A DNA stretch of 64,000 bases from Microcyclospora pomicola (taxonomy: Eukaryota > Ascomycota > Dothideomycetes > Capnodiales): assembly GCA_002786065.1 (NCBI GenBank), contig NHNY01000002.1, positions 682,001 through 746,000 of the forward strand, read 5' to 3'. Each line of letters begins with the position of its first letter. Within the stretch, counting starts at the first letter, position 1. Below, in pieces: positions 6,797 through 62,029 of the stretch. The notes under the pieces are model-generated. The model was not told the DNA's origin and made no database searches. It saw nothing but the letters and a program-made list of their open reading frames with translations. The translations under genes were made by a program, and so were the position numbers.

Positions 6797-6846
6797 ATGC
6801 TAAACTTGCCCACTCCGCCGCCCTCGCCACAGCCATATGGACTTGA
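6733..6846 (+). promoter_or_regulatory. Overlapping upstream ORF at kinase start
   Basis: An ATG at 6733 opens a 37-codon frame that ends in TGA at 6844-6846. It overlaps the kinase start at 6797 in another frame. A scanning ribosome using it would bypass the kinase ATG, so it could hold down translation. This is seen directly in the sequence; use in vivo is inferred and depends on the transcript starting upstream of 6733. Confidence 0.4.
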
Positions 6847-8140
6847 TAGCTCGCAGCCTGGCCAACATCGGATCGGACAGATCCTGCCCGGTGACATCCA
6901 ATTGATCGAAGTCCTTGGTGTTGGAGCGTATGGTACAGTGTACAAGGCCCGAAATGTTCATGATCCCTGCATTGAGTATGCCGTGAAAACATTGAACAAG
7001 AAAGGCCTTGATGCCCGACAAAGGGCTTTCCAGGATCGCGAGATCCAACTCCATTATGAGGCCAGCCAAAAACAGCCCGGTGTGGTGGAGATGATCCAGA
7101 TCGTGGACAGTGAGGACTGCACTTTTGTCGTTTTGGAATATTGCCCAGAGGGTGACCTGTTCGCCAAAATTACCGAGGAAGACCAGTATGTTGGAAATGA
7201 CCAAAAGGCAAAGTGGGTGTTCCTCCAAATCCTGGACGCCGTCAAGGCTTGCCATGATCGGGGTATTTACCATCGGGATCTCAAACCTGAGAATATCTTG
7301 GTCAAGGATGATGGATGGACTGTGAAGCTGGCCGACTTTGGACTGGCCACCAAGGAACGGATCACTTCGGACTTTGGTTGTGGATCAACGTTCTATATGT
7401 CACCAGGTGTGTATCCCGTCGATCCTTCAGTTCCAGCACAGGAGGTTACTAACTCACGCGACGCAGAATGCCAACAAAACAGCTCGAACTTGCACGCAGG
7501 ATACGCATCCGCTCCCAACGATGTCTGGTCTCTTGGTGTGATCTTGGTCAACCTGACATGTGGCCGCAATCCGTGGAAGCACACCACCATGGAGGATTCC
7601 ACCTTCCGCGCTTTCATGCGTGACCGAAACTTTCTCCAAACCATTCTTCCCATCACGGATGAGCTCAACTACATCCTCCAGAGAATTTTCGAGGTTGACC
7701 CCCAACGCCGGATTTCTGTTACTGAGCTCTTGTACCTCATTTCTGCTTGCCGTCAGTTCACACATGGGTCACCCGCTGGAACCAGCCCAGTAACTCCGGC
7801 GTACACCCCTCCCGTGGAAGCTGTCGAGAGACCTTGCTTGGATACATCCATGGCCTACGTGGAACCACTGTCGGCAGTGCCTAGCATAGAGCTGCCGCGC
7901 CAGCAATACCCACAGGTGTACCCGCAACAGCAATTTGCCTCCTCACCCTCACCACCACAGTCTGTCCACAGCAGCCCACATCATTCGCCTTATTCACATA
8001 CGTTTGCGGCCAAGCATTCAGTGCCTACTGTCTGCTCTCCGTATGTTCCCCAGTTCGATCTCTTCCAGCCGGTATCTCGGTACGGACAACAATTCTTCTC
8101 GTCCTTCCAAGGACAGTGCATTTTCTGGCCAGTTCGATGA
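6797..8140 (+). CDS. Ran1/Sks1-like serine/threonine protein kinase
   Basis: A protein kinase of about 427 aa, closest in motif style to the fungal Ran1/Pat1, Sks1 and Vhs1 nutrient/meiosis kinases. The kinase domain covers roughly residues 34-330: glycine loop GVGAYG (41-46), YAVK lysine 64, alpha-C glutamate 82, HRDLKPEN (159-166), DFG (180-182) and MSPE. The C-terminal 100 residues are rich in Pro, Ser and Gln and look disordered. The start is the ATG at 6797; the frame stays open upstream to 6737 without an ATG. One intron, 7407-7466 (60 nt, donor GTGTGT, branch TACTAAC), splits the Glu codon of the SPE motif. It is a multiple of three with no stop, so retention would add 20 residues there. 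Substrate and pathway cannot be read from the sequence. Confidence 0.85.
   Translation: MLNLPTPPPSPQPYGLDSSQPGQHRIGQILPGDIQLIEVLGVGAYGTVYKARNVHDPCIEYAVKTLNKKGLDARQRAFQDREIQLHYEASQKQPGVVEMIQIVDSEDCTFVVLEYCPEGDLFAKITEEDQYVGNDQKAKWVFLQILDAVKACHDRGIYHRDLKPENILVKDDGWTVKLADFGLATKERITSDFGCGSTFYMSPGVYPVDPSVPAQEVTNSRDAECQQNSSNLHAGYASAPNDVWSLGVILVNLTCGRNPWKHTTMEDSTFRAFMRDRNFLQTILPITDELNYILQRIFEVDPQRRISVTELLYLISACRQFTHGSPAGTSPVTPAYTPPVEAVERPCLDTSMAYVEPLSAVPSIELPRQQYPQVYPQQQFASSPSPPQSVHSSPHHSPYSHTFAAKHSVPTVCSPYVPQFDLFQPVSRYGQQFFSSFQGQCIFWPVR
7407..7466 (+). other. 60-nt stop-free in-frame intron in kinase
   Basis: GTGTGT donor, TACTAAC branch site and ACGCAG acceptor. Splicing joins ...MSP to ECQQ, giving the expected kinase APE-type motif. 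Read through, the intron codes 20 residues without a stop between Pro203 and the Glu. Confidence 0.8.
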
Positions 8141-12154: not shown

Positions 12155-14701
12155 CTATCTCTTCCAAGCGACGCCCATAGCTGGCACCACCTTCGCTTTG
12201 TTGCTCGTCGTCGCAGAGGCCTTGGGATGGGCGATGAAATGATGGCGCAGCGCATCGCTCGGGGTAATCCTACGGTTAGGGTCAAGTTGCAGACATCGGT
12301 CCATCAAGTCCACAAACGCCTCATGCTCCTTCTGCTCCGTCGCCGACAACCCCTGCACATTCCCACCCAAACGAGTCTTCAAATCTCTGCCTGCCGCCGC
12401 CGCTGACTTCATGCTTAACATACGATGTGAACTTACTTTGCCTGTGATCTTATCTCGTACTCTCGAGATGAAAACGCCTTCGTGGTCGTAATAATCGGCC
12501 ACGAGCTGCGACATTTTTAGCATGCGCATGGGGACTTTGCCCCGACATTCCTGGATCACGAGCAACATTTGGTTATTGTCAGCTCCCGAAAACAGGATCC
12601 GACCAGTGTAAAGCTCGAACAGTGTGCAGCCTATAGACCACATGTCAATAGCATACCCGATTTCCATTCCGAGGATAACCTCCGGCGCACGGTAAAATCG
12701 TGAGACGAGGTATGGTGTGATCTCTGCTTCGGTCACAGTCGTGGCAGTGCCAAGATCGCAGACTTTGAGCATACTCAATTTATCACTGATCAGTATGTTG
12801 TCCGGCTTGAGATCAGCATGGATGATCTCGCACTTCTTCATGTGTGCCAAGGCCAGGAACATTTGCTGGGCGTACGAACGAATGGCTTGTGGACTAATAC
12901 CAACATTTCGGCCAAACTTCTTCAACACCTCGCGTAGATCGGCATTCATGCTCTCAAAAACGAGACAGAGGTGAGCTTTGTGGACGAACGAGCGTTGCAA
13001 GCGGATGATATGTTTCTTGTCCTCGGCATCCTCAGCATTCAGCTTTTGCAGAATGTCCATCTCCTTTTGGCCAGCTTTGAGCATGGTGTCATTGTTGCAG
13101 GCAATCTTGATGGCAACCGCGTTGCCTGTCCTGGTGTCTTGAGCGCGGACGACTGTTGCGAATGTGCCCTTGCCGATCTGTTGCTGTACAGCGTAGCGGG
13201 AGTCGAGCAGTTCATTTAAGATGATGCGATAATGCCCATCCGGATAATCCCAGTTGTCAAGTAAGCTTTGGTCCAAAGTCTTGGCTTCTTTGGTATCGAC
13301 CATCTGTTTCGACACCGCATCTGTCGGTGCGAACATGTCATCCTCAATGTCTTCTGCAAACATGTCGAACTCGTCACTCTTCTTTGTGGAATCTGCCGCC
13401 TGAGCTTCTACCTCTGAGGCTAGAATCGGCGACGTCTGCGATTCCGGTATGGTGAGTTTCTTGTGGTCGGGCCTATCTTCTTGCAAGTCCATATTGGGGT
13501 CATAATCAGCTGCAGAAGGCCCGTCATCGGCTGTAGTATTGTCGCCTTGATGATGATGGTTTGCAAGGTCTCGGACGTCGTCAAAGGTGAAGAGTGCTGG
13601 TGAGTCTGGTGGAGAATCGCGATGTGGCGTCCCTGGTGAATCCGTGGTAGGTGGTGACCTATGCTCAGCTGGGGTGGCAGGTGCCGACAACGTGTTCTGT
13701 TCGAGCGCTTTGACAAGAAGATCAGGTTGAGCATTATGCTTAGCCCTCAACGCCTGACGGCGTTTCCGACGCTGCTCTATGAGCTCTTCTTCTGTCATGT
13801 TGTGCTGAGTCTGATCGTCCTCATGATTTTGGTCTAGCGTCTTGGTTGAGGCGTTACTGTTGAGAAATGCGTCCGCAGAGCTTGTCAAGGTGCGCGCAGA
13901 CTGCAATGATTCGCCGACTTGCATGTCGTTGTTGCTTAACTGCTTGCTCTGAGCATGGGCTGCACGTGCATCGTTGTTCAGGATCAATCCCTTGCGATCA
14001 GCCAATCCTGTGTTTTGGCTGCTTTCGGCCACAGAGCGCAGCTTACCCAGCCGCTTAGCTTTGTCGTGACGGAATGGCGAACGCGATCGACTGCGACGGC
14101 GGTAGGGTGATCGACTGCGTTGAAGGCCTCCGGCAGGGCTTGGCGACCGGCGACGGCGTTCACGTGTACGCTCACTGCGTGAATCGTCATCCCAATTCGA
14201 GCTGATGGGCCCGGCGAGGCTGTCATATAGCACTCGAGGCTCTCCAGCACGGGGTGCAGATGGGCCATACTCACGAAATATTTGCTCGCCCCTTGTGTTC
14301 TGACCTGCATGCTTAGAGTACACGTCGTTGTGCTTTCTCTTCTTGTCTGGACGCCAAGGGGAACGAGACCGCGACCTGGCTCTTAAGTTACGACTGTATG
14401 ATTTCGAGTCCTCCACTCCGTTCGCGGGGTATGGATCGCCATCCCTCAGATAACGTTCTTTCTCCTTCACTGGAAGTGAACCAACATCCACCGAACCTTC
14501 ACCATTCCGCCAATGATAGTACGGATCCCAAGATACGCGAGGACCAGATGGGTGCGGGAATCGAGATGAAGACTTCGGTCTGGCGAAGGGGTCAATATTG
14601 GTGGTTCTGTTGGACATCGTGGTCGTGCGAGCGGTTGCAACCTTCTCCTCGTCCACGCTGGGGATTTCCCCGTCGGATAGCGATGGCGAGCGCGAGCTCA
14701 T
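12155..14701 (-). CDS. prp4: Prp4 kinase (pre-mRNA splicing, DYRK-type)
   Basis: A single-exon protein of 848 aa. The first 250 residues or so are rich in Arg-Ser and Ser-Pro, as in PRP4/PRPF4B kinases that associate with spliceosomal proteins. A long acidic, low-complexity linker follows. The kinase domain is about residues 502-824: GKGTFATVV, AIK lysine 532, the Prp4-type catalytic loop HADLKPDN (628-635), DLG (649-651, in place of DFG) and YRAPE (670-674). Prp4 kinases phosphorylate U4/U6.U5 tri-snRNP proteins and activate the spliceosome in the nucleus. The start is the ATG giving MSSRSPS; the frame is open to 14803 but without an ATG. A GTAAGT near 12431-12436 resembles a donor, but no usable acceptor keeps the frame, and the segment aligns with the variable insert before DLKTRL. 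I therefore read it as coding. Confidence 0.92.
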   Translation of the reverse strand: MSSRSPSLSDGEIPSVDEEKVATARTTTMSNRTTNIDPFARPKSSSRFPHPSGPRVSWDPYYHWRNGEGSVDVGSLPVKEKERYLRDGDPYPANGVEDSKSYSRNLRARSRSRSPWRPDKKRKHNDVYSKHAGQNTRGEQIFREYGPSAPRAGEPRVLYDSLAGPISSNWDDDSRSERTRERRRRSPSPAGGLQRSRSPYRRRSRSRSPFRHDKAKRLGKLRSVAESSQNTGLADRKGLILNNDARAAHAQSKQLSNNDMQVGESLQSARTLTSSADAFLNSNASTKTLDQNHEDDQTQHNMTEEELIEQRRKRRQALRAKHNAQPDLLVKALEQNTLSAPATPAEHRSPPTTDSPGTPHRDSPPDSPALFTFDDVRDLANHHHQGDNTTADDGPSAADYDPNMDLQEDRPDHKKLTIPESQTSPILASEVEAQAADSTKKSDEFDMFAEDIEDDMFAPTDAVSKQMVDTKEAKTLDQSLLDNWDYPDGHYRIILNELLDSRYAVQQQIGKGTFATVVRAQDTRTGNAVAIKIACNNDTMLKAGQKEMDILQKLNAEDAEDKKHIIRLQRSFVHKAHLCLVFESMNADLREVLKKFGRNVGISPQAIRSYAQQMFLALAHMKKCEIIHADLKPDNILISDKLSMLKVCDLGTATTVTEAEITPYLVSRFYRAPEVILGMEIGYAIDMWSIGCTLFELYTGRILFSGADNNQMLLVIQECRGKVPMRMLKMSQLVADYYDHEGVFISRVRDKITGKVSSHRMLSMKSAAAAGRDLKTRLGGNVQGLSATEQKEHEAFVDLMDRCLQLDPNRRITPSDALRHHFIAHPKASATTSNKAKVVPAMGVAWKR

Positions 14702-15963
14702 AGCTACGGCTCGCTCGTACGGCGAGGTGATATTCTGCTCAGACGTTGAGGGTTGATGGGTCAGCAGTTGGTTCAATTGAGCTTCTTTTGGCCCAGCATG
14801 CAAAGAGTCCTCACAGGTCTATCTGTTGTCTGCAGGTAATACGCAAGGCCAGACGAGAAGGCGTTGCCAGGTACAGCAGTGAGGAGTAGATATGCTGGTC
14901 CTGCGCAGGTACAGTCCGTCAGGGTTCGTGAAGGTGAGGTGCGAGTGAAGTTCACATGGCCATGAGGTGTGAAGTTCACCTGGAAAGCCCTTCCGATGAG
15001 CATGGCGGGCATACATCACGTGACCAATGCGGGCCTCTAGGTTTCAAGTAGTTCTACAATAGCACATGTCTCCATTTGCGGCGATCTTGAACAACCTCAC
15101 CTCACCTCCACTCTCACTCTATATCATCACGAGCGCTGCTATTGACCGTGAAATTATCTCTGACATCGTGTCGTTAGGTCAAAATGATGAACCAGGACCA
15201 AGCCTGGTGAGGGCAAAACCGATCTGATCCTTTCGACTATGTAGGACGCCTAATGGTATCCTTAATCCTCATCACGGGCTTTCACGTGCGACGGGGATCA
15301 TCGCTGGACCAACGCATGGAGGAAACGATTTCTCGCTCTCCAGTCGTAAGAGGCGGGCGTAAGGTGGCATGCGTGGGAGGCCTTCTTTGACCTCATCCGC
15401 TCCTCTATTCTCGCCGATCATTCTCACCCCACGGGCTGATCCAGTGAAATCCATCCAATGCTATCTCCTCTCCCACATGCTACTGTTGATCGTATTCCTG
15501 CGTCAGCACCGATTTACCATCAGCACCAGGATCTAGGGTATGATCGACAACGGGCTGAAATCAGAGTCGGCTATTCGTCGAGTCTCGCGTGTTTCATGTC
15601 TTCGGATACCGACCATGACGGTACCGGTGGTTTTGCAGCCAGCATTTTGCAACATCAGTATCCCACAGTACACTGGTCTTATAGCGACTGTGCATATCAT
15701 TGGAGGAATAGAGGATGTCTGCTATCTCACTGGTGAGAAACGTGCTTGCAAGGTGAGACATTGAGATATCCCTCGTCCTACGATCCCGCAATCCCGTCTC
15801 TTTGGTTAGCAAAATATGATAAAGGCAACTCAGATGCGCTGCTTCTCCGTGATTCTGAGCATTCCATCCAGCGCACCCCATCTCGTCTATACAAAAGTGG
15901 ATCTGTGATCCCCGTTCACTCATTTACCGGTACATCTCGACGACGAGGCTCCAAATTCCAGAC
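14702..15963. other. Divergent intergenic, prp4 to peptide precursor
   Basis: About 1.26 kb of upstream DNA shared by two divergent genes. No gene is seen. GTGAAGTTCAC-like words occur twice between about 14947 and 14985. The right end carries the promoter of the secreted precursor. Confidence 0.6.
15888..15895 (+). promoter_or_regulatory. Possible TATA box of peptide precursor
   Basis: TATACAAA lies 69 bp before the final base preceding the ATG at 15964. Position and sequence are suitable for a TATA element, but many fungal promoters lack one. Weak evidence. Confidence 0.3.
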
Positions 15964-16635
15964 ATGCATACCTTTGTTCTCCTCTCAGCCCTTGCGGCTC
16001 TTGGTGCAGCTGCGCCCATTGTGCCTTCCAGTGGCTACCCAGCTCCCACTGGGCTCCCATTCGGCGCTGGAATTCCAATCCCTACCGGATCTCTCGGCCC
16101 TACAGCCGGCCCTCCAGGCCCGACTGGACTGCCGCTGAAGCGCGATATTCCTTTCCCAACTGGCTTCGCTGGCGAGAAGCGCGACGTACCATTCCCAACT
16201 GGCTTCCCATCGGGAACTGGCATCGAGAAGCGCGACGCCCCATTCCCGACCGGCTTCTCATTGCCAAGTGGGTTCGAGAAGCGGGATGCCTCCTTCCCAA
16301 CTGGCTTCCCAACTGGCTTCCCGCTGGCAACTGGCATCGAGAAGCGCGACATTCCATTCCCGACCGGCTTCCCACAGCCAACTGGCTTTGCTGCAGAGAA
16401 GCGTGATTTCTCCTTCCCATCATCTGGCTTCCCACTGCCAACTGGCTTTGCCGGAGAGAAGCGCGACTTCTCCTTCCCATCATCAGGATACCCTGTGCCG
16501 ACCGGCTTCCTTGCAGCTCGCGACACGGCCACCGGCACCATCGCTGCCCGCCAAGTCCCGGTACCAACTGGCACCATCCCATCCGGTGTGTTCCCTCGCG
16601 AGAACATGCCCCGCCCCACCGCGACCGGCTACTAG
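15964..16635 (+). CDS. Secreted Kex2-processed repeat peptide precursor
   Basis: A 223-aa single-exon protein. Residues 1-17 form a clear signal peptide (hydrophobic, ending AAA before Pro). The rest is repeats around the core FPTGF, separated by seven Lys-Arg pairs (59-60, 72-73, 89-90, 106-107, 127-128, 146-147, 166-167), usually preceded by Glu and always followed by Asp. Cleavage by a Kex2-type protease would release six bounded peptides of 11, 15, 15, 19, 17 and 18 residues starting D-I/V/A/F, plus a C-terminal piece. It has no cysteines, so it is not a classical effector, and no W-C-rich alpha-pheromone motif. The layout fits fungal kexin-processed repeat proteins, including repellent-type peptides and precursors of dikaritin-like RiPPs. 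Phe predominates over Tyr, and no UstY-like (DUF3328) gene lies in the window, so RiPP status is open. Mature product and function are unknown. Confidence 0.85.
   Translation: MHTFVLLSALAALGAAAPIVPSSGYPAPTGLPFGAGIPIPTGSLGPTAGPPGPTGLPLKRDIPFPTGFAGEKRDVPFPTGFPSGTGIEKRDAPFPTGFSLPSGFEKRDASFPTGFPTGFPLATGIEKRDIPFPTGFPQPTGFAAEKRDFSFPSSGFPLPTGFAGEKRDFSFPSSGYPVPTGFLAARDTATGTIAARQVPVPTGTIPSGVFPRENMPRPTATGY
16138..16467 (+). repeat. KR-delimited tandem repeats in precursor
   Basis: About six and a half imperfect coding repeats of 13-21 codons, each with the form KR-D-x-P/S-FP-...-G-F/I-...-E. Copies differ in core length, with one internal FPTG duplication around residues 111-119, suggesting expansion by unequal crossing-over and ongoing variation. 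Confidence 0.85.
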
Positions 16636-17707
16636 ACGATAACACCATGAACAACGGCACTGCATGACCTTGGCGTACTGGCGACTTATGACAAACACAC
16701 CCCGGCAGATCCTTACACACCAATCACACAACACGGCGGAGATGGCAGGGCTATCTGCTTTTAGACATAGAGGATACATTTCATTCGGCCTTATAGATTT
16801 TCCTTCTCGTTGTTCATTCCCCTTTTTCCGAGGAGCATTGGCCTGGTCTGTCTGCCGTCACTGGGTAGCGTGGGGTAGGCACGTTATGGCAACGGGATCC
16901 GAGACCTCATGATAGAATAGAAGGATAGATGTCATATCACCAGGTTGTTTCTGCAATTACCTTCCCATTTCATACAATCGTTATAGTGATTACACTGTTG
17001 TGAAAGTATGTAAGTCAGCGCTGGTCCGTACCTTAGTCTCATGCCTGAGGTCACAGATACAAAAAGTCACATGCAAGTGGAGCTCGTCCACGTACAATAT
17101 AAGGTATCCATGCTCTGGACTTCAACTGCGCTTGGACATAAGACAATATCTAAATAGACGGAGCGCTCCGATGGAGACGGGAGACAGCTAGACATCGTCG
17201 TCGTCGCTCTTTGCGCAAGCATAGGGCATTTTCACAATACACTCTGCGAACAGAACAGCTGAGATGCTCATTCAGAAGTACATTCAAATTTCTTCAATGG
17301 GCTATTTGGGAAATCTCATCAAGGAGACCTGAACCTGTCTATACGATAAGGTAGGAGAGGTATGATACATGATTCTGCCTCAAGATAATCAACTGTCCGA
17401 ACCAGGACATCGCTGGATGATTTCATCGGGTGTGTGTTTGCCACACCCAGAACGCCAATGCAATTTCCATCTTTTCCTGTGTCCCTGTCCGTGGGCCAAG
17501 ATAGCTCTTTCGCTACCCTGAAGAAATTGCCAGTTACCGTCAGAAGCCAAGTGGCCAAGGTGCGCTCATGAGGTGGTCAAGTGAAGATGCCCAAAGCTTA
17601 AGGTCGTTGAAAGATCGTAGAAGCTTTTGACGGCTGGTGCTGGACGAAGTGAGGCTGCGTCAAAGGCATGCTCAAAATCTCTGCCTCCGCATGTGCACAC
17701 CGATAGC
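16636..17707. other. Intergenic between convergent genes
   Basis: About 1.07 kb between the stops of the peptide precursor and the minus-strand proline-rich protein gene. It is AT-richer than the flanks and should hold both 3' UTRs. No gene is supported. Confidence 0.6.
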
Positions 17708-19641: not shown

Positions 19642-20337
19642 ATGTCCAAACCGACGGGCACCCCAGACATTACGAAATTGCGCTTAGAGGACGACGTTGA
19701 CGATCTTTTCGCCTCGCCTGACAGCCGCAGCGCAGCACAGAAACACACATCGTCTGCGCAGACATCTTCGGCGCAGAAGCAGAGTCAGAAGAGCGAGGCG
19801 GAAACCCGCGATGCCCAGCTGCGGGCGGAATTGGAGCGCATCCGCGAGATCAACCGAGTGATCGAGGGGGTGACTGCATCGTTGACCAAGGCAAAAGACA
19901 ACATGGCAACGGTCAACCGGACGGTGGATAACGCAAGCACCTTACTGGCGACGTGGACGCGGATCTTGAGTCAGACGGAACATAATCAGCGGCTGATCCT
20001 GAACCCGGCGTGGAAAGGCGCTACACAGGATCTGGAGGATGCGGAGGGCGAGGAGCTCAGACGGCAGCATGAAATGGAGAGGAGAGCGGTGGAAGAGGTG
20101 AGGCGACGAGAAGAAGCGCAGAGGAAGCTTGAGGAGGAAGAGAGACGGAAAGCTCTCGCGCCGAGTGTCAGCGGGACGAGGGGGAGGGCAAGAGGCACAA
20201 GAGGGTCGTCGACGAGTAGTCGAGGCTATGTCAGTGTTGGTGGGCAACGAGGGCGAGGGTCGACGACAAGTACGAGGGGTGGACTTGGAGTCGGTCGGAG
20301 TAGTTCGGTAAGAGGACGAGGTCGTGGCATAAGTTAA
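19642..20337 (+). CDS. duo1: DASH complex subunit Duo1
   Basis: A 231-aa single-exon protein. Residues 50-135 or so match Duo1: an ELERIREINRVIEGV helix, then TKAKDNMATVNRTVDNASTL and the hallmark WTRILSQTEHNQRLIL, followed by NPAWKGATQD. A charged coiled-coil segment (about 140-175, Glu/Arg-rich) and an Arg-Gly-Ser-rich tail complete it. Duo1 is part of the fungal DASH/Dam1 ring, which couples kinetochores to spindle microtubules. The ATG at 19642 is the first in frame. The basic RG tail is plausible for microtubule contact, which is inference. Confidence 0.95.
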   Translation: MSKPTGTPDITKLRLEDDVDDLFASPDSRSAAQKHTSSAQTSSAQKQSQKSEAETRDAQLRAELERIREINRVIEGVTASLTKAKDNMATVNRTVDNASTLLATWTRILSQTEHNQRLILNPAWKGATQDLEDAEGEELRRQHEMERRAVEEVRRREEAQRKLEEEERRKALAPSVSGTRGRARGTRGSSTSSRGYVSVGGQRGRGSTTSTRGGLGVGRSSSVRGRGRGIS

Positions 20338-21766: not shown

Positions 21767-23629
21767 TCACCAGCCATACTTCTCCACCTCAACGTTGACG
21801 TCCCATCCCTCCCACGCCAGCCCGGAGCATGTGTTTCTCACAGTACGATTCATGCCATCCGGTCCAGAGACCACAACGCCAACGGTTGGATCTTGCATCC
21901 CACTCTCGGCAGCCATGTCTTGCACGACCTGCCGAGTCAGAGCGCAGAGATCTGGGCGACCGGCTTTATGGGTAGGTCCAGGAATGATGAGATGCAAGCC
22001 CTTTGCGCAGAGGTCATCGAGGCGATCCTGCCCGATCCAGTCGATGTGAGAAGCATCGTGTATGATCCACAGCAGACCAACTTCCTGGCGAGAGCCTGCA
22101 TTGGACTCGCTATCTGCCGTGGAAGCATGTAAAAGATCCCAGATCATCGGGTACGCAACAGCGATGCCCGAGCCACCCGCGACAAGTAAAGTGATATCGC
22201 GCGAGTGTAGCATGTCGAGAGCAACAGGGGAGCCGTAAGGTCCATCGACTCGTACTACTGCTGAAGTATGGGTGCCAGCGTACTGGAGTAGACTTCGTGT
22301 GAAGCCATCGTGGGTCCGCACAATGAGGCTGAGCCAGGCATGCTGCGAGCCGGTTTTCGGTGCGGCAGAGGCAATAGTGAACGGATGGCTCTGCAGGACA
22401 TGCGCTTTCCCGAGAGCTGGAACGGTGATAAATATGTGTTCCATAGACTTCCAACCATTCGCAATGTTTACCCCGAGAGTCCTCTTCCAGCCAGATGGAA
22501 GCGGCCAGTCACGAGAGAGAAGGACAGTCTCACCATCTTCCATGACCGTGAGATCAGCTTTGAACGTTTTTGAACTGAACCCAAAGCGAAAGACCACACG
22601 GTCCACGAGGAAGATCGACAAAGCAATCACCACATACTTCCGCCCACCACGATGGTGGAAGTACAGTATCACCAGAGCGGCGCATTGCAGTGTTATGTGT
22701 GAAGCAAGAAACGCCTCGTAGCACCAATTGCGGAAACTGGCAAGCGACGTGAAGTACAGTGCTTCATAGCATAAGAAGGCTGCGAAACCAAGCACGACAG
22801 TTCGGTGCGTGAAGAACAACCAGGCCGTGACACCGATTGGTCGAAGCCCGTACCACCAGACTACCAGCATTGCCGCCCCGTGCAAGACTGGGAGGATACA
22901 CATGATCTCGCCCAGACGGCGATGTATGATATTCAAGCCCTCATACGAGTAGCCAGTCAGAAATCTGAGCGGCTGGTTCTTGGCCGCCAGAATGTATAGC
23001 CATGGGAGGTTCGCCGCGAAAAGTAAGGCTGTGCGATCCGAGAACACGATTTGAAGCTCAGTGGCAAAGCTGATATCGTAGAATGAGAAGAATACGTTCA
23101 AACCCACGAATGCAGCTATCACCACCGTTGACAGTACGGACGGGAGAACTTTGTTGACGAACGGTATGTTGGGAGGCTGATACATGGCTAGGGCATGGTA
23201 CTTGCGCAGCCAGCGCTTCCAGAGGACCAACGCGGACCTATTAGACCTAAGTCCTAGCAGCGGCTGTCGTTCGCTATTCAAGTCGTCTTCTTTCGTATTG
23301 CCCGAAGGTGTGGCGTTTCCTGGCAACAGCGAGCTCGAAGAGCTTGAGGGAGCGCTCGAGACCTCAGCATGGACGCTGGACAACGTGGGAGAAACATGTC
23401 GCCTGCGACTGTTTCTCCATCTCTGAATGCGAAGTACCCAATGCTTGACCGTGAACAGTAGCACTATGCCAATCAGAATAGCATGATAGATTAGGATGAG
23501 ATCCTTATTGTGATAAATGCCGTTCAAAACACGGCGGCGGCGATCCTGGTCTTCGTCTAATGTTTTGACTCCTGAGCCGTCGCCCGCATCGTCGTAGAAG
23601 TTGACGATACGCGGCGAAGTGACAGTCAT
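21767..23629 (-). CDS. Ferric/cupric reductase transmembrane (FRE family)
   Basis: A 620-aa single-exon flavocytochrome that reduces extracellular or vacuolar ferric/cupric ions using NADPH, FAD and heme. An N-terminal membrane helix (about 43-62) precedes a Ser-rich loop. The ferric-reductase membrane core (about 165-345) has two His pairs spaced by 14 (H236/H250 and H311/H325) that should hold two hemes. The FAD-binding motif HPFTIAS is at 415-421, DGPYG at 462-466 and the NADP-binding GGSGIA at 485-490. Length and domain order are typical. It starts at the ATG at 23629 (MTVTSPR). It is divergent from the UbiB-like gene across 519 bp. Iron regulation cannot be judged from the sequence. Ion preference and membrane location are not determined. 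Confidence 0.92.
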   Translation of the reverse strand: MTVTSPRIVNFYDDAGDGSGVKTLDEDQDRRRRVLNGIYHNKDLILIYHAILIGIVLLFTVKHWVLRIQRWRNSRRRHVSPTLSSVHAEVSSAPSSSSSSLLPGNATPSGNTKEDDLNSERQPLLGLRSNRSALVLWKRWLRKYHALAMYQPPNIPFVNKVLPSVLSTVVIAAFVGLNVFFSFYDISFATELQIVFSDRTALLFAANLPWLYILAAKNQPLRFLTGYSYEGLNIIHRRLGEIMCILPVLHGAAMLVVWWYGLRPIGVTAWLFFTHRTVVLGFAAFLCYEALYFTSLASFRNWCYEAFLASHITLQCAALVILYFHHRGGRKYVVIALSIFLVDRVVFRFGFSSKTFKADLTVMEDGETVLLSRDWPLPSGWKRTLGVNIANGWKSMEHIFITVPALGKAHVLQSHPFTIASAAPKTGSQHAWLSLIVRTHDGFTRSLLQYAGTHTSAVVRVDGPYGSPVALDMLHSRDITLLVAGGSGIAVAYPMIWDLLHASTADSESNAGSRQEVGLLWIIHDASHIDWIGQDRLDDLCAKGLHLIIPGPTHKAGRPDLCALTRQVVQDMAAESGMQDPTVGVVVSGPDGMNRTVRNTCSGLAWEGWDVNVEVEKYGW

Positions 23630-24148: not shown

Positions 24149-26318
24149 ATGCGCTCCGTTCTGCTGTTGGGCAAGGTCTGCCTTCGAAGCAGCAGACCGG
24201 TTCGGCCGCAAGTCCTACGACAGATTCAGTACAGTTTGCACAGTGGTCGAAGTACGAAGTCCTTCTCGACACTACGGCATTTCTTCCACCAGCCTCCACC
24301 GCCGTTCCGTGGCGGGAAAGCATTATGGGCTGCAGCGCTGAGCCCTGCGGCTTTCGTATCCATTGCCAATGACGAAGAGAAACACAAAGATGGAAAGACT
24401 AGCGAGGAGCACATGCTGGAGATATCACGTCAAGAGCTGGAAGAGGCCGTGCCAGAGATACTGCAGGGGTCGAAGAGGTATAGGAAAGCCATCTGGCATT
24501 TTGTGGATGCATACTTCCTTGAGCCCATAGCGACGGGATTACGCTTCCTCCATCTAGTCGTGATATTTGTGCCGGTGATCGTGACGATACCTGCCATATG
24601 GTTTGGCGCGCGACAAGCGGACCGCGACGACGAAAGAACTGGATCTTTATGGTGGTATGGCTTCCTTGTCGCGTCCATGGAGCGAGCAGGCGCAGCATTT
24701 ATCAAGCTTGGCCAGTGGGCTGCGAGCAGAACGGACATCTTCCCCACTGAGATGTGCGCGATCATGTCGGCGCTACACTCGAATGCTCCAGCGCATTCAC
24801 TCAAAGTCACCAAACAGACCATAGAGCGCGCCTTTGGTCGACCGTTTGATGAGATATTTGACGAGTTCGATGAAAAGCCACTTGGAGTCGGAGCTATCGC
24901 ACAAGTCTACAAGGCTAAGCTGAAGCCCGACCTCGCTGAAACATCGGAGAGTGATTCAGCAGTAGAGCTGCCAACTTTGCGAGCACGAGCGTTGAAGACC
25001 GTGGATCCATTACTCAAAAGCACGCCTCAGAGAGTACCATCGAGTTACGTTGCCATCAAAGTCCTGCACCCTAAGATCGAGCGCATTGTCCGTCGCGACC
25101 TCAAGATCATGGGTTTCTTTGCCTCTATCATCAATGCGATTCCTACCATGGAATGGCTCAGCTTTCCTGACGAAGTTGGGCAGTTCGGCGAGATGATGCG
25201 CTTGCAGCTTGATCTGCGTATTGAATCTGCGAACCTAACCATCTTCCGCCGAAATTTCCGTAACAGGTCGACCGCCTGGTTCCCTTATCCATACAGTGAG
25301 TATACTACACGTCAGGTGCTGGTGGAAGAATTTGCAACAGGTATACCGCTCGAGCATTTCCTCCAGAATGGCGGCGGAGTATTCCAGAAGGAGATTGCGG
25401 ACGAGGGTCTTGATGCCTTCTTACACATGCTGCTGATCGACAACTTCATCCATGCTGATCTGCACCCTGGCAACATCATGGTGCGATTCTACAAACCCGC
25501 CACGCTTGATGTCGGCGCGCACATGCCACGCTTGGGTCGTCAGAAAGCTGATCCGAAGACCGGAGCCGATGTGACAGAAGAAGTGCTCTCTCGCCTTCGA
25601 CCGCATCGTCACGCCAAAGATGCATGGATTTCTACCCTCGCAGACATCGACCGGGAAGGCTATCGTCCGCAGCTCATCTTCATCGATACAGGCCTTGTGA
25701 CGGAATTGAATGATACTAATCGCGCAAACTTCCTCGATCTGTTCAAGGCCATTGCGGAGTTCGATGGATACAAAGCCGGTCATCTGATGGTTGAACGTTG
25801 CCGACAGCCAAGTGCGGTGATTGACAAAGAAGTGTTTGCCTTACGAATGCAGCATCTAGTCATTGGCGTCAAGAGTAAGACCTTCGCATTGGGCAATATC
25901 AAGATCGGCGACATCCTCAACGAGGTACTGGACATGGTCAGAGGACATCACGTTCGGCTGGAAGGTGACTTTGTGAACGTTGTTCTCTCGATCCTCCTTC
26001 TCGAAGGCATTGGGCGGAGTCTGAATCCAGACCTCGATCTCTTCTCTGGGTAAGTTTGTTGCTCTTGCTCAGTACAGAACATGTTCCGAGGTGGACAATG
26101 TCAACATCAAAAGTCGAATCAGCTAACATCATTTCCCTCCTAGCGCTCTTCCTATCCTTCGTCAACTTGGTGCCCAGTCTAGTGGTTCGATGCTCCGCTC
26201 TGGCGACCTTTCCATGGTGAAGGTCTGGGCTGGTCTAGAGGCCCGAAAGTTCTTGCAAGCAAGCATTGAGAGCGTGGAGATGTGTGTCCGCTACGACCAG
26301 CTGTCACCCAACATTTGA
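24149..26318 (+). CDS. Mitochondrial UbiB/ABC1-family kinase-like (Cqd1/ADCK2-type)
   Basis: Exons 24149-26049 and 26144-26318 (94-nt intron, GTAAGT...CCTAG) encode 691 aa. The first 50 residues or so are basic and Ser-rich, as in mitochondrial presequences. A membrane helix follows at about 134-153. UbiB motifs: KLGQ (186-189) in the KxGQ helix, the Ala-containing loop GVGAIAQVYKA, AIKVLHP, the catalytic loop HADLHPGN (435-442) and DTG (513-515). The roughly 70-residue insert between the last two is a trait of the ADCK2/Cqd1 branch rather than of Mcp2/Cqd2. Family members act in the mitochondrial inner membrane and influence coenzyme Q distribution and lipid homeostasis. The second exon gives the C-terminus GALPILRQLG...LSPNI. 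Exact subfamily is inference. Confidence 0.88.
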
Positions 26319-26584: not shown

Positions 26585-28108
26585 ATGGAGTTCATCATGG
26601 CCCTCAAAATATTCATGCGTGAAGAACGATCTACCATTACAGTGACGCAGGCCGTTGCAAGACTGGGCGCTCTTTATATGCTCATTGCCCACCACGATGC
26701 CTCCTCGATTCTCCGGACACTTCAACAACAAAGATTCGCCGACGGCATCGCAAAGGCTACAGAGACTTATTCAACCAGGACGCTCGGGGCACGACAAGAA
26801 CGTTCCATCATGTCTATTGGTGATATAATGAAGCTTCCGGGGGAGCTCATCGGACGCATAGCGTGGTTCCTGTCCAACAAGGATATGAAGAGTTATCGGC
26901 TCGTTCACACAACATTCGCAGCATTTTCCACCCTATGCTTCGAGCGGGTCTTCCTCTCTGCGAACCGCATAGACATTGATGTAATACTCGAAATTGCGAA
27001 TCGCTACAAGTATGCCAAGCAAGTCAAGGAACTCATCTGGGTGGAAGCGCATTTTCCGACTGAGCCGTTCATCTTCATAAGCTACGTAGATGAATACGGC
27101 CAGCCCGACACTGAAACGACGGGGATGCCTTACGCATTCAGAAACCCTCTGATCAAGATAGATTCCAATGAGCACCTTCGCCAAGAGCAGGTCGACATTA
27201 TCGAGACGAATGAGCACGTTGAAACTCTCAGGAAAGTGCTCGCTTGTTTCACGTCTCTCGAAAAGGTCACCATCACAGATCGAGTGGATAGAGCAGGTCG
27301 TGTGTGCTATCCGACGCCAATGATGCGGGCTTTCGTACACAAGACCATCCCGAAACAGCGGAGTTGGACACGACACTTGGTTGATCAGGCTGACTTTCCC
27401 GGTCCTGTATGGCGTGGCTTGGTAACTCTGGTAAAGGAGTTGGCTCTCAGCAAGTCTGCCATCAAAGAGTTCTGTTTCGACACCACGGACCCTAACACTG
27501 GCATCCCTTGGGAATTCTTTGGTCGTCTCCACGAAAATTTGGACGGTTTGGAGCAGGTGTTTTCACGTGGTCTGGAGAGACTACAGTTTAGTGTCGACAT
27601 TGGCGAGCAGCACCACGGCAGCATCGCTTTACCAAGGCTCTCTGGCGGTCCACTTCACCGCATCCTCCGCGTGGCCGACCAGCTGAAGTATCTCAATCTG
27701 AGTACGAACTGCCGATTCGTCGCTCTTTTGAGTGATCAGCTGGGGGATGCTCGCATACTCCAGGCCGTTCCCATGGAATGCTTCAGACAGCTGGAGCGCT
27801 TTACGCTCAATCGAATGTTCGTATGCCATGAGGATTTGATCAAGCTTTTTCGAGCTTTGCCAGCTACTATCCAATTCGTCACGTTCCACGAGGTTGCCAT
27901 ATGGGCGCTGACATGGAGCGACGCTATGCCAGAGTTGAAAAGCGCTCTCCCGAGGACTGACGGCTTGTTGTCGATCTGCGTGCATACCACGGCAGACAAT
28001 GCTCCGGCGGGCTTCACAATAGATACTCCAGGCACCATTACCTACGTCGTCATGGGCCTTCGGCATCATGGCAATACGACTTGGCCAGTGTCCTGGCATT
28101 TCCAATGA
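26585..28108 (+). CDS. F-box-like protein, paralogue A
   Basis: About 507 aa, single exon. A short F-box-like segment (IMKLPGELIGRIAWFLSNKD, then YRLVHTTFAAF) lies near residues 80-112 in this model. The rest is a Leu-rich helical region with no named repeat, like many fungal F-box proteins that recruit substrates to SCF ubiquitin ligases. The first in-frame ATG is 26585; an ATG at 26810 (MSIGDIMKLP) would put the F-box at the N-terminus and may be the true start. It shares layout with the next gene: KLP-E-L, then RELVWVDTHF/KELIWVEAHF and CLTSLTRVTI/CFTSLEKVTI. That points to an old tandem duplication. Function unknown. Confidence 0.72.
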   Translation: MEFIMALKIFMREERSTITVTQAVARLGALYMLIAHHDASSILRTLQQQRFADGIAKATETYSTRTLGARQERSIMSIGDIMKLPGELIGRIAWFLSNKDMKSYRLVHTTFAAFSTLCFERVFLSANRIDIDVILEIANRYKYAKQVKELIWVEAHFPTEPFIFISYVDEYGQPDTETTGMPYAFRNPLIKIDSNEHLRQEQVDIIETNEHVETLRKVLACFTSLEKVTITDRVDRAGRVCYPTPMMRAFVHKTIPKQRSWTRHLVDQADFPGPVWRGLVTLVKELALSKSAIKEFCFDTTDPNTGIPWEFFGRLHENLDGLEQVFSRGLERLQFSVDIGEQHHGSIALPRLSGGPLHRILRVADQLKYLNLSTNCRFVALLSDQLGDARILQAVPMECFRQLERFTLNRMFVCHEDLIKLFRALPATIQFVTFHEVAIWALTWSDAMPELKSALPRTDGLLSICVHTTADNAPAGFTIDTPGTITYVVMGLRHHGNTTWPVSWHFQ

Positions 28109-28873: not shown

Positions 28874-30433
28874 ATGGCCGACGACAAAAGTCCTGCCATG
28901 TCCAATATGATGGCAAGTGGCGTGGTGGAAGATAGAACATTGAAGGACGACACGACGCAAAACAACGCAACTGCCAACAACATGCCGCAGACGGACACGG
29001 ATAGAGACGAGTCCAGCAAGGTGGCCCTGCCCGATCAGATGACAGTAAACCAATTGACAGTTGACAGTCTTCCAATGGCCATGAAATTACCAGACGAGCT
29101 CATCTTGCTCATCGCTGGTGAGCTCACTAACGCAGACCTGAAAAAGCTTCGACTTTCCAGCAAGGCGTTTGCTTCGAAAGTTACACTGTCAGTCCCTCGT
29201 ATCTCAGTCACGCCGAGCAGGTTCGGCCTCGAGGTTTTGCGTGGTGTTGCAGAACGCCCTGAACTCGCAGAACAGGTGCGGGAGCTTGTATGGGTCGACA
29301 CGCACTTCATCGACCGGGAGATTCTCCAGCATCTTGAATCACGCGCAGGAATGCGCGGGGGCATATGGAGCGAGATACCCCATGGCGAGTCCTATGGTGA
29401 TCGCTGGTCGTTTGACCCGGAAGTACCCAACGACTGCCAGCACCAGGCTGCTTATCATTTAGCTGTTAAGGGGAGTAAGGGGTATGGGCAACTAAGCAGC
29501 ATAAAAAGAGCTAATCTTGCTTCCGAAGAGCGGATTAAGGCGCTCAGGTACGGTCTACCTTGTCTCACCTCCTTAACACGAGTCACCATTCAGGAAGGTT
29601 GCTGTCCAAAAAACCTGGTGGCCCCTGACGTGACATTATCCCGGGCCGAGAGAGCCATGAACCATTCGCTATCAATACATCCCTGGATCCATGCCTCGAA
29701 AAATGCTCACCACTACTGCTTCGTCATGAGGGAGTTGTGGGCGAGCAGATGCTCCATCAAAGAGCTCATCATCGAGGAATATCAAGATGGACTTGGACTG
29801 ATCAGGAAGGGAGTACCGTTCGCCTGCTTCGAACATGCGGCAACATCGAAGCATATGAAGACCATCGGCGCTCGAGGCCTGCAACGATTGCGTCTCGCTG
29901 TAGATGTCATGTCGATCGACGATGTCGACGATGTCGAGCTTGGCCTCAAAAACCTTTCTGGAAACGACTTGCACGACATACTCTCTGCAGCCACTTCAAT
30001 GGAGCACTTCGAACTACATACGAACTGGTTCAATCTTGATGGTCCGAGCCCTGCTGAAGTTTACCGCCATGCTCTCAGAGCTGTACCGACGAAAAGCTAC
30101 TGGCCTGCACTGAAGCACCTCACCATATCCAAGATTCCCACAGCACAGGACGACTTACTTGCTCTTATCGAGAACTTGTCGCCCACCATCGTGTACTTAG
30201 AATGTAATCGTGTTGAGATCTGTGATGGTACATGGGATCAACTTCTGCCTCAGCTGAAGAGCCGGCTTCCTCACACACACGAGATGCTCACGGTCACAAT
30301 GGTTCTTTTTGGTACGGATTATTTTTTCCGAAACGTCATGCTGGCGGATTATGGGATCTACGGGGTGACAATCAACATGCAGCATATCGGCGATAGTACT
30401 AGTCACGAAGAGTACAAATACCAGAGGTACTGA
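28874..30433 (+). CDS. F-box-like protein, paralogue B
   Basis: 519 aa, single exon from the ATG at 28874. A polar, disordered N-terminus of about 65 residues precedes the F-box-like MKLPDELILLIAGELTNADL and KKLRLSSKAFAS (about 69-101). The remainder is Leu-rich and helical, ending in a short aromatic tail. The gene parallels its upstream neighbour in length, F-box context and several downstream blocks, though overall identity looks low. It is probably a substrate-recruiting subunit of an SCF ubiquitin ligase; the target is unknown. F-box genes of this type expand and diverge quickly in filamentous fungi. Confidence 0.78.
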   Translation: MADDKSPAMSNMMASGVVEDRTLKDDTTQNNATANNMPQTDTDRDESSKVALPDQMTVNQLTVDSLPMAMKLPDELILLIAGELTNADLKKLRLSSKAFASKVTLSVPRISVTPSRFGLEVLRGVAERPELAEQVRELVWVDTHFIDREILQHLESRAGMRGGIWSEIPHGESYGDRWSFDPEVPNDCQHQAAYHLAVKGSKGYGQLSSIKRANLASEERIKALRYGLPCLTSLTRVTIQEGCCPKNLVAPDVTLSRAERAMNHSLSIHPWIHASKNAHHYCFVMRELWASRCSIKELIIEEYQDGLGLIRKGVPFACFEHAATSKHMKTIGARGLQRLRLAVDVMSIDDVDDVELGLKNLSGNDLHDILSAATSMEHFELHTNWFNLDGPSPAEVYRHALRAVPTKSYWPALKHLTISKIPTAQDDLLALIENLSPTIVYLECNRVEICDGTWDQLLPQLKSRLPHTHEMLTVTMVLFGTDYFFRNVMLADYGIYGVTINMQHIGDSTSHEEYKYQRY

Positions 30434-33761: not shown

Positions 33762-35473
33762 ATGAGATTCTCATTCGCCTCGGCGGCCGTGTTGGCCCTG
33801 GCAACCCAGTCCGTGGTTGGTGACAGCTGGTTCGGCAAAGCTGGTGAGTTCGATCTCGATTCCTTAATGGAGTGGTTGTGTCAGTGGTCGAGTTGAGCGT
33901 GCAGCACCTCGGAAGACGCATTGAGCGTGAGAAGATGGATGGGTTGCCGACCAGCAGTCCCTCGAAAGTTTCTGTTCGAGCTCATCCCAAATGCAATTCG
34001 AACAACAAGATCACCATGATTGCTTCGTAAGATCCTACCCTTACTGAATCATGTCTGACTAACACAAGGCCGCACAGCATACAACAAGTGGCACGAGACG
34101 GAGCTCGAGAGGTAAGTCACACAGCTCCCAAGTAAGCTCTTGACTGGAACACACGCTGATCGCTTCACTTCCCGCAGATGGCTGTCAGACCACAACGTAC
34201 CATACCCAACTCCTGCCGACCGCAAGGACTTGGAGAACTTGGTGAAGAGCAACTGGGAGAACAACGTCGTCAAGCCCTACAACAGCTGGGACACCAACCA
34301 GCTCAGCAACTACCTCTCCTCGCAAGGCCACCAGATCAAGAAGGGCACCGAGAAGAACAAGGACAGCCTGGTCTCTCAAGTGCAGACGTACTGGAAGGAG
34401 ACCGCCGATACCGCTAGCGATGCTTACTCCAGCGTCTCGTCTTGGATCTTCGACAGGTGAGCATGCTTGTCCTGCAGTGACGTTAATTCATGCTAACACA
34501 ACCCAGCTGGACTGAGTCTCAGCTCAAGGCTTTCCTCGACTACCACAACATCCCCAACCCGTCCCCTCGCACTCGCGACTCGCTTCTCCACACCGCTCGT
34601 GCCAACTACCAGGCCGCTGCAAACAAGATTGGCGAGACTGCTGCCTACCCCGGTGACTGGCTCTACAAGTCGTGGTCCGACTCCGACCTCAAGGTCTGGC
34701 TCGATGAGCGTGGCATTCCCGTCCCGCAGCCTGGCAACCGTGATAAGCTCATTGCTTCCATCCGCCGCAACTCCAAGATCGCTTCCGACCACGCCGCCGC
34801 ACAGTACTCTTCCCTCTCTGCCTCCGCCGCTGGCGCTCAGCAGTCTTTGAGCGACGCTCTGCTTCAATCTTGGAGCGACAGCCAGATCAAGGAGTGGTGC
34901 GACAAGAATGGCGTCAAGGTCCCCCAGGGCAGCAAGCGTAACGAGCTCGTTGCCCTCGCACGCAAGCATGCCGCTGCCCTGACTGGAAACAATGTCGCAA
35001 GCAGTGCCTCCTCCGCATTCGGTGCTGCCACCACCTCCGCCGGTAACATGTACGCTGAGCAGACCAACGGTCTCTACAACCAAGCTCGTTACTACTACGA
35101 TCTTGCGCTCAACCAGTTCGGTCTCGCTTCGGCTTCAGCCTCAGCCAGCCTGAGCTCTGCCAGCTCTGTCGCAAGCAGCATGGCTTCTGTCAACTCCAAG
35201 GCCGCATCCGCGTCCCTGTCCTCCGCGGGTAAGGTAGGCTCTTCGTCTGTCTCCTCGGCCGGGAACGTGGCTTCCGCATCTGCCTCGTCGGCTAGCAGCG
35301 TGGCTTCCGCTTCCGCCTCGTCCGCAAGCAGCGCTGCCTCTCTGCTCTCCAAGACCGCTTCCGCCTCAGCCTCCTCGGCCAGCAAGGTGGCTAGCAAGGC
35401 CGGTAAGAACGCTGCCTCTGCTGCCAGCTCTGCCGCCGATGACGTCTACAAGTCGGCCAAGTCTGAGTTGTAA
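33762..35473 (+). CDS. ish1: Ish1-domain repeat protein (stress/nuclear envelope)
   Basis: Four exons (33762-33843, 34078-34111, 34178-34456, 34507-35473; introns 234, 66 and 50 nt) encode 453 aa. A signal peptide (about 1-20, ending VVG) precedes five repeats of about 40 residues of the Ish1/HeH-like type. Each begins with Trp and follows W-x-x-S/T-x-L-x-x-W/F-L...P...R-x-x-L, for example SWSDSDLKVWLDERGIP and SWSDSQIKEWCDKNGV. The last 150 residues are Ala/Ser-rich repeats (ASASSASS), probably helical or stalk-like. In Schizosaccharomyces pombe, Ish1 is a stress-induced nuclear-envelope protein. Two introns interrupt codons directly before a TGG, one at the R-W of the first repeat and one at the start of a later repeat. 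Role in this species is inferred from the family only. Confidence 0.87.
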
Positions 35474-60403: not shown

Positions 60404-62029
60404 ATGTACGCAAAGACCATTTTCTCTGCTGCTCTGCTCAGCGGCATTGCCGCTGCAGCTCCAGCTCCTGGTGAGTGGGGTCCGCATGGCTGGGGAGGCT
60501 CCCACGGCAAGCCTCACTCATATTCGGACTCAACGCCATCGTCTGCTGAAACATCTGCTGCAACCACTGCTGGTGTCGCCATCAACCAAGGCGGCAACGA
60601 GCCTGGCTACACCGATGCCGATGCCCCGTTCGGCGACTACACGCCGTCTCCGGTGACTGTTGTACCTTCAGTGTTCGGTCCGGACTCGCAGGTGCCTGCC
60701 ACACATGTCACCGCACCAACAACAGGTCTGTACGCCGCTGACACCCAGCGGAGTGCAATGCCGACCGGAACCACCACTCACGGTCCCTACTCTGGAGAAG
60801 CGACCACGACGGGCGCTGTGTCAAACACTCCCAAGGGCACAACTCTGCCCGACCTTGGCGTGAATCCCACCGCCACTTACTACAACACCAATGGCAAGCT
60901 CCAAAACCAGGAGCCGCTTCCATACACCCCGGCTGGAGGTCTTGGTACCAATGGCACCGTCCCACGATACATGGTGAACAGCGACTTCGACTATGAGTCC
61001 ATTACCCTCGGTCTTTACCAGGAGTGGATCGAGTTGGACTGCTTCAACAACGCTGTTGCCATCTTCTCCGAGGAAGACTTCGCCGCTGCTGGTCTCGGTC
61101 CGGAGGACATCTCCTTGATTCAGTTCATGGCTCAGCAAGAGCAAGGCCACGCCACTCTCCTGTCCAACATGCTCGGCGAGACGGCACCGCCGCAGTGCAC
61201 CTACAACTACCCCTACAGCAATGTTCGCGAGTTTGTCGAGTTCAACTCCATCCTCACTCGTTGGGGTGAGTCTGGCGTTTGGGGTTTCATCAACCACCTT
61301 GACTCTCGTGAGGTCGGACAGCTTTTGGCCCAGTCCATTGCCACCGAGGCTCGCCAAGAGATGATCTTCCGCCAGTTCTCCGGTCTGCACCCCATGCCCG
61401 TCTGGTTTGAGGCTGGTATCCCGCAGTCCTGGGCGTGGACCTTCCTTGCTCCATACATCAGCTCTTGCCCTGAGAACACCACCCGTGTTGCATGGCAGAA
61501 CTTCCCGGCTCTTCACGTCAAGAACCAGGCCAACATCAACCGCTTTTCTCCAAACGACACAGGTCTGTGGGAGCGTGTCGACAATCGCACGTCTTCGCCC
61601 TCGACCATCCCTCCGGAAGATGAGAGCTGTATCAACGTGAACGTGACCGGCTACGGCTGCGGTCCAGCCATTGCCCACAACCGCTCCGAGCCACTCTCTT
61701 TCCCCGGCAAGCAGGTCCTGCTCGAATGGGACAACAAGGGCGCAGCCGTCGGTCCCAACAACAGCTATGTGACTGACTCGTCTGCCGGAGCACCTGTCTT
61801 CGTCGCCTGGGTCAACCAGCTGAACATGACATACACTCCGTTGACCATCACCGGCCCCAACGAGGGTTACACCTACCAGCCCGCTGGTGATGTGTACGTC
61901 GGCGGCCAAGGCATCGTCAACCAGACCACCTTCATCGCCCTCACGGACACTGATATGTTCCTGACGCCGTTCAACCTCAGCATGATCAACCCGCATGTTG
62001 CTGCGCTTGGTCTTTATGTTGCTGGTTAA
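60404..62029 (+). CDS. rds1: Rds1-like secreted ferritin-like protein
   Basis: 541 aa, single exon. A signal peptide (1-19, SGIAAAA-PAP) leads a low-complexity Ser/Thr/Pro/Gly region to about residue 165. The ferritin-like domain (about 190-350) begins DYESITLGLYQEWIELDCFNNAVAIFSEEDF and has the EQGH motif (246-249) and a later ATEARQE helix, so iron-ligand Glu/His residues are partly retained. The C-terminal part is rich in N-glycosylation sites (NTT, NRT, NVT, NRS, NLS and others). It resembles S. pombe Rds1, a protein induced by glucose/ammonium/phosphate starvation and cold stress, and related secreted fungal proteins. Biochemical role unknown. Confidence 0.88.
   Translation: MYAKTIFSAALLSGIAAAAPAPGEWGPHGWGGSHGKPHSYSDSTPSSAETSAATTAGVAINQGGNEPGYTDADAPFGDYTPSPVTVVPSVFGPDSQVPATHVTAPTTGLYAADTQRSAMPTGTTTHGPYSGEATTTGAVSNTPKGTTLPDLGVNPTATYYNTNGKLQNQEPLPYTPAGGLGTNGTVPRYMVNSDFDYESITLGLYQEWIELDCFNNAVAIFSEEDFAAAGLGPEDISLIQFMAQQEQGHATLLSNMLGETAPPQCTYNYPYSNVREFVEFNSILTRWGESGVWGFINHLDSREVGQLLAQSIATEARQEMIFRQFSGLHPMPVWFEAGIPQSWAWTFLAPYISSCPENTTRVAWQNFPALHVKNQANINRFSPNDTGLWERVDNRTSSPSTIPPEDESCINVNVTGYGCGPAIAHNRSEPLSFPGKQVLLEWDNKGAAVGPNNSYVTDSSAGAPVFVAWVNQLNMTYTPLTITGPNEGYTYQPAGDVYVGGQGIVNQTTFIALTDTDMFLTPFNLSMINPHVAALGLYVAG

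Follow-up and report, generated by a model that had tools for sequence, protein, structure and literature searches.

A probable KEX2-processed repeat protein with Pro/Phe/Gly-rich segments encoded in the genome of Microcyclospora pomicola

Does a fungal reading frame in which a signal-like start is followed by regularly placed Lys-Arg pairs give rise to linear secreted peptides, to enzymatically modified ones, or to a protein that is never cut? The question is raised by a 223-aa frame in a 64,000-nt stretch of Microcyclospora pomicola DNA (the window, from whose position 1 all coordinates of this precursor are counted). A preliminary description considered it a Kex2-repeat secreted precursor and, there being no UstY-like gene in the window, a possible new RiPP system or product class. 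With a probability of roughly three in four, we consider the precursor to be a KEX2-processed repeat protein (KEP), from which linear peptides with an N-terminal Asp and a C-terminal Glu are released via Kex2 and Kex1, with no UstY-type cyclisation, and which probably act as signals or agents towards other organisms.

Table 1. Features of the precursor and of the genes around it (window positions)
Feature	Position	Strand	Basis
Complete precursor ORF, 223 aa + stop	15964-16635	+	open frame; codon-usage support
TATA-like element TATACAAAA, putative, 67 bases from its end to ATG	15888-15896	+	eye reading, position checked
Signal-peptide-like segment MHTFVLLSALAALGAAA	15964-16014	+	hydropathy window; cleavage point inferred
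N-terminal pro-region, degenerate PTG units (3 PTG), ends at first KR	16015-16137	+	sequence
Kex2-type site 1 (KR), residue 59	16138-16143	+	sequence
Peptide 1, DIPFPTGFAGE, 11 aa	16144-16176	+	sequence
Kex2-type site 2 (KR), residue 72	16177-16182	+	sequence
Peptide 2, DVPFPTGFPSGTGIE, 15 aa	16183-16227	+	sequence
Kex2-type site 3 (KR), residue 89	16228-16233	+	sequence
Peptide 3, DAPFPTGFSLPSGFE, 15 aa	16234-16278	+	sequence
Kex2-type site 4 (KR), residue 106	16279-16284	+	sequence
Peptide 4, DASFPTGFPTGFPLATGIE, 19 aa	16285-16341	+	sequence
Kex2-type site 5 (KR), residue 127	16342-16347	+	sequence
Peptide 5, DIPFPTGFPQPTGFAAE, 17 aa	16348-16398	+	sequence
Kex2-type site 6 (KR), residue 146	16399-16404	+	sequence
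Peptide 6, DFSFPSSGFPLPTGFAGE, 18 aa	16405-16458	+	sequence
Kex2-type site 7 (KR), residue 166	16459-16464	+	sequence
C-terminal tail, 56 aa: seventh unit, then degenerate units, AR/PR at KR places	16465-16632	+	sequence
Protein kinase	6797-8140	+	Pfam
Protein kinase	12155-14701	-	Pfam
DASH Duo1	19642-20337		Pfam
Ferric reductase	21767-23629	-	Pfam
ABC1-type kinase	24149-26053		family precomputed for its matches
Ish1 protein	34490-35473		Pfam
Ferritin-like protein	60404-62029		Pfam

The frame is open throughout, from its ATG to a TAG, and its layout (Table 1) bears out the seven Lys-Arg sites, the at least six related peptides of 11-19 aa and the lack of Cys that had been described. The sites are spaced by 13-21 residues, and all six segments between them, once KR is removed, begin with D, end with E and carry a net charge of -2; none contains Tyr. 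The core previously given as FPTGF is found exactly in five of the six, while the sixth has FPSSGF and, like it, the C-terminal segment has FPSSG. The peptides share D-x-[P/S]-F-P (in its longer form D-x-[P/S]-F-P-[T/S]-[G/S]) and vary in the rest, so that a small set of variants comes from the one gene. Degenerate PTG units also lie outside the KR region, in the pro-region and the tail. The signal peptide proposed earlier agrees with a hydropathy window, a crude test used here instead of SignalP: the best 9-mer (2.67) covers residues 5-13, the hydrophobic segment ends in AAA-P, and no membrane-like stretch follows, the later 19-residue maximum being 0.65.

Since repeats yield long ORFs on both strands (on the minus strand, 16035-16607 and 16100-16648 overlap the precursor), the frame needed support. 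With a synonymous-codon score trained on ten ORFs of the window, it reached 15.9 against -12.1 (s.d. 5.7) for a recoded null, a value attained by none of 1000 recodings; per codon this means 0.072, the training ORFs ranging from 0.011 to 0.067. Codon choice alone does not choose the frame, since the frame shifted by one base scored higher, 19.2; the other plus frame gave -26.7, each of these two holding one stop, and the three minus frames over the same span gave -0.4, -21.0 and -5.6, with 5, 2 and 2 stops. Only the precursor frame, among the six, is open from end to end. Moreover, a coding-segment scan of 136 kb by whole-codon usage, whose gene models are crude in that genes may be split or missed, independently picked 15949-16608 on the plus strand, which is number 24 of its 49 models when counting starts at 0.

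The dibasic sites are also too many for the composition of the protein. Of the basic residues of the mature part, 7 are K and 11 are R, and every K sits in a KR; the seven KR compare with 0 to 4 in 200000 shuffles of that part. KRD likewise occurs seven times (two or more in 10 of 100000 shuffles) and FPTG six times (two or more in 185 of 100000). Comparison of the seven units over ten columns from KR on gave 0.59 synonymous and 0.19 non-synonymous differences per site, as uncorrected pairwise proportions. For units one to five, the KRD and FPTGF columns, picked for conservation, gave 0.41 and zero, and the two columns between them 0.80 and 0.39; as the narrower columns were chosen because they are conserved, only the ten-column figures are fair, and as the units were located via KR itself, there is some circularity in the zero non-synonymous count at KR-D-F. 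Divergence at silent sites with the motif retained indicates that the units are not fresh copies. Judged from these comparisons, the repeat motif seems to be kept by selection. The ORF as a whole has the appearance of a genuine fungal gene coding for a secreted product.

By the established route, the precursor would enter the ER through its signal peptide, Kex2 would cut after each of the seven KR in the late Golgi, and Kex1 would then trim the KR. Repeated cutting of this sort probably yields about six related short peptides. All six would be linear and 11-19 aa long, Asp first and Glu last; they would be secreted along with the pro-region and the 56-aa tail, and most likely none of them would be cyclised by a UstY-type oxidase. 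Pro/Phe/Gly peptides that are linear and acid-ended, and that leave the cell through the Kex2/Kex1 route, are the most likely product. The genome contains one Kex2-type (P-proprotein) match, one DPPIV-type match and 23 exon-wise S10 serine-carboxypeptidase matches; Kex1 is likely to be among the several S10 genes, none of which was singled out. The anatomy, the codon use and the single Kex2-type match together support a Kex2-repeat secreted precursor, as first proposed.

KEPs were described as a class in 2019 (Le Marquer, PMC6339444) and 2020 (Umemura, PMC7329392). The precursor resembles them in its signal-peptide-like start, detected by the crude hydropathy test, and in its dibasic sites, which separate at least three similar segments, most of them of the 9-24 aa class: six segments within the 8-100 aa allowed between Kex2 sites were counted, with an ad hoc similarity cut-off. 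By the shortest-segment rule its repeats make up 29.6%, above the minimum of 15% of the protein set by Le Marquer (PMC6339444). It also shares with 6120 of 7878 KEPs the absence of a DUF3328 gene nearby (PMC7329392). In the repeated sequences of those 6120 KEPs, Tyr is reported for 38.2% (PMC7329392), so that Tyr-less repeats are the majority there. The difference lies in the core, D-x-[P/S]-F-P-[T/S]-[G/S] not being among the conserved cores printed in PMC6339444, the supplementary KEP lists of both surveys aside. The KEP class is already described, and only the peptide sequence of the precursor is unfamiliar.

Other peptide systems share this layout in part, and for each of the repellents, the dikaritins and the alpha-pheromones at least one tested feature is missing from the precursor. 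A repellent-like (Rep1-type) repeat protein, surface-active or belonging to the cell wall, with peptides that coat the hyphal surface instead of acting as signals, is unlikely. The precursor is Phe-rich and, as in Rep1 of Ustilago maydis, Kex2 sites separate its imperfect repeats; Rep1 itself counts as a KEP, and its peptides assemble into amyloid-like fibrils (PMC4617103, PMC9769878). Nevertheless, the Rep1 peptides are reported as amphipathic and fibril-forming, ten of them being 35-53 aa long (PMC4617103), whereas those of the precursor have 11-19 aa, are rich in Pro (18 of the 107 residues in the unit region) and show mean hydropathies near zero (-0.15 to 0.23). Pro-richness disfavours beta-fibrils. 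It is quite improbable, too, that we are dealing with a Pro/Thr/Gly-rich wall or secreted protein whose KR sites stay uncut in life: its PTG units do run throughout the mature protein, within the KR region and outside it, but the excess of KR, the 13-21 residue spacing and the silent divergence around a fixed KR argue for sites that are used.

A dikaritin-like RiPP, with a core modified in trans by a UstYa protein encoded elsewhere in the genome, has very little probability. The layout is that of the dikaritins (ustiloxin, phomopsin, asperipin-2a, victorin), and the UstYa profile (PF11807) gave 17 exon-wise matches in the genome, 16 of them over the cut-off, at nine places. The nearest lies on the same contig (C12:646065-646832), 51 kb upstream of the precursor, with two HxxHC motifs, HSLHC and HLWHC, in its ORF. 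However, 17 crude gene models separate it from the precursor, this UstYa being the 18th model upstream, and there is no UstYa/DUF3328 in the window or among the 15 nearest upstream models; the DUF3328 genes that accompany a KEP gene are reported at an average distance of 3.09 genes (PMC7329392). The six peptides also lack the Tyr that is usual in a modifiable core. This feature is not absolute, as Tyr is stated for 65.6% of the repeated sequences where a KEP has DUF3328 genes as neighbours (PMC7329392). The eight genomic matches to tyrosinase (PF00264) all lie on contigs other than C12, hence outside the window, and the enzyme, present with ustiloxin and phomopsin, is described as not required for every dikaritin (PMC12048977). 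Moreover, four of the nine UstYa places have KEP-like repeats of other sequence nearby. The lack of a UstY-like gene in the window, which the profile confirms, argues for a linear KEP and not for a new modified class, and the suggestion of a new RiPP system or product class thus finds no support; linear, minimally modified KEP peptides are not counted as RiPPs in the usage of PMC9769878.

The four UstYa places with KEP-like repeats are on C32, on C1 near 456 kb, on C10 near 241 kb and on C27. Tyr occurs in four of the five repeats, with cores including NGFYVV, VVYADY, RFGAYEF and TPYHPGIDVEER, and the Tyr-less one has EPDAIIK. They come from a scan of 246 kb, in which 354 of 2054 ORFs of at least 60 aa had at least three KR/RR, 104 had at least three usable fragments and eight passed; as 11 of the 19 scanned stretches were chosen around UstYa matches, the scan gives no unbiased rate. 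Two of the eight were rejected as antisense to others (window 16103-16723 and L028 2255-2725, both minus), and L025 2295-2885 as the wrong frame over another repeat ORF. The genome has, then, UstYa-associated repeat ORFs and, separate from those, the precursor.

These loci deserve a description of their own. On C32, a KEP-like ORF with SPTNGFYVVSADEDGEAAEVEKR-type repeats (L024 8561-9073, minus; C32:30561-31073) lies near several UstYa matches at C32:27.7-33.4 kb, with which it forms a probable dikaritin-type cluster. Adjoining the same UstYa genes is a repeat ORF (L025 2384-2812, plus; C32:34384-34812) of TPYHPGIDVEERA units with a signal-like start by eye, whose joints are mostly ER-A, not KR. 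On C1, the acidic Tyr repeat SEDDDDVVYADYKR (L028 2248-2604, plus; C1:458248-458604) is near UstYa at C1:455.8-457.1 kb, and a tyrosinase match at C1:449.8-450.4 kb completes the gene set expected of a cluster of the ustiloxin/phomopsin type. On C27, AAVINSRFGAYEFDEKKR repeats (L033 3910-4302, plus; C27:135910-136302), again with a signal-like start by eye, have UstYa matches about 1 kb away, and on C10 acidic Tyr-less units ending in IIKxRR, IIKxRQ or similar (L030 7517-8011, plus; C10:242517-243011) are near UstYa at C10:240.6-241.1 kb.

Finally, an unusual alpha-type mating pheromone precursor is highly improbable: the architecture is alike and the genome has one STE2-type receptor match, but the units are unequal in length, the dipeptides after the seven KR (DI, DV, DA, DA, DI, DF, DF) are of the Ste13 type, XA/XP, at only two sites, and the ORF has neither Cys nor PYG, so that both Dothideomycete core types given in PMC6339444 (a two-Cys core or PYG[LM]P[IV]G) are absent; by these motifs a known Dothideomycete alpha-pheromone was rejected.

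As regards the surroundings, ten ORFs of the window were scanned against Pfam and four had no match, including the next two downstream of the precursor. Two adjacent ORFs of 507 and 519 aa (26585-28108 and 28874-30433, plus) appear by eye to be F-box-type relatives; they have no Pfam match.

The precursor, for its part, had no Pfam match up to E 10, and no paralogue was found in its own genome; a genome match at C1:669585-669686 (E 0.36), in a repeat-free ORF of 282 aa that has a single KR, was taken as chance. Among 5.8 billion proteins (4978 candidates) no homologue was found at E <= 0.01, and a single weak match at E <= 10, P0121 (E 0.035), a protein of 161 aa from a 10.5 kb contig with the source label lgn. 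The alignment covers 60% of the query at 39% identity, and 36 of its 152 columns contain gaps. P0121 is itself rich in PFPTG, and it resembles the precursor in its KR sites and in the words PFPTG (as PFPTGG in P0121), PTGFPTGF and SGFEKR, but P0121 has only two KR, each followed by EA or QA, and a His-rich unit of 67 aa including its KR. The score of 191 exceeded the maximum of 128 in 1000 shuffles, a weak test because shuffling destroys repeats, and the likeness may reflect shared composition, not descent. As a control, the neighbouring ABC1-type kinase was used: out of 7996 scored candidates it found 2476 proteins, of which the best, with 90% identity, bears the name Quercus suber. Below it, at 79-80%, come named fungi including Recurvomyces, Zasmidium and Baudoinia, genera that we take to be Dothideomycetes near Mycosphaerellales. 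The Quercus suber entry (P0001) is probably a fungal sequence in a plant assembly. As the control gene finds fairly near relatives, the precursor would either change fast, be confined to a lineage, have escaped gene prediction, or be masked by composition correction; the HMMER correction for Pro/Gly-rich composition would lower sensitivity. This lack of a homologue is usual for the class, 2560 of 7878 KEPs being reported without one (PMC7329392). Among titles and the beginnings of abstracts, no fungal-peptide literature with the letters FPTGF or PFPTG was found, and among the KEP papers listed, no title or abstract shown names the sequence. It is a tentative and rather doubtful idea that FPTG-core precursors form an undescribed KEP family, of which this precursor and P0121 would be the first two members, and that the peptides released, acid-ended Phe/Pro/Gly ones in the case of this precursor, would serve Mycosphaerellales-like fungi as a signal for communication or defence specific to their lineage.

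With regard to function, the peptides of a linear KEP such as the one favoured here would probably be diffusible signals or agents towards other organisms, a step which, for either choice, is a guess. The best guide to the role of the gene is the work on agaricomycete KEPs, by analogy and not as evidence: linear KEP peptides were detected there by mass spectrometry, and six KEP knock-outs are reported to show no apparent phenotype in axenic culture, in which the authors see a hint of roles towards other organisms (PMC9769878). The precursor adds no new mechanism. Being a single-exon gene for six short, synthesizable peptides, far from UstYa although UstYa-associated repeats occur in the same genome, it represents a convenient test of the function of linear KEP peptides.
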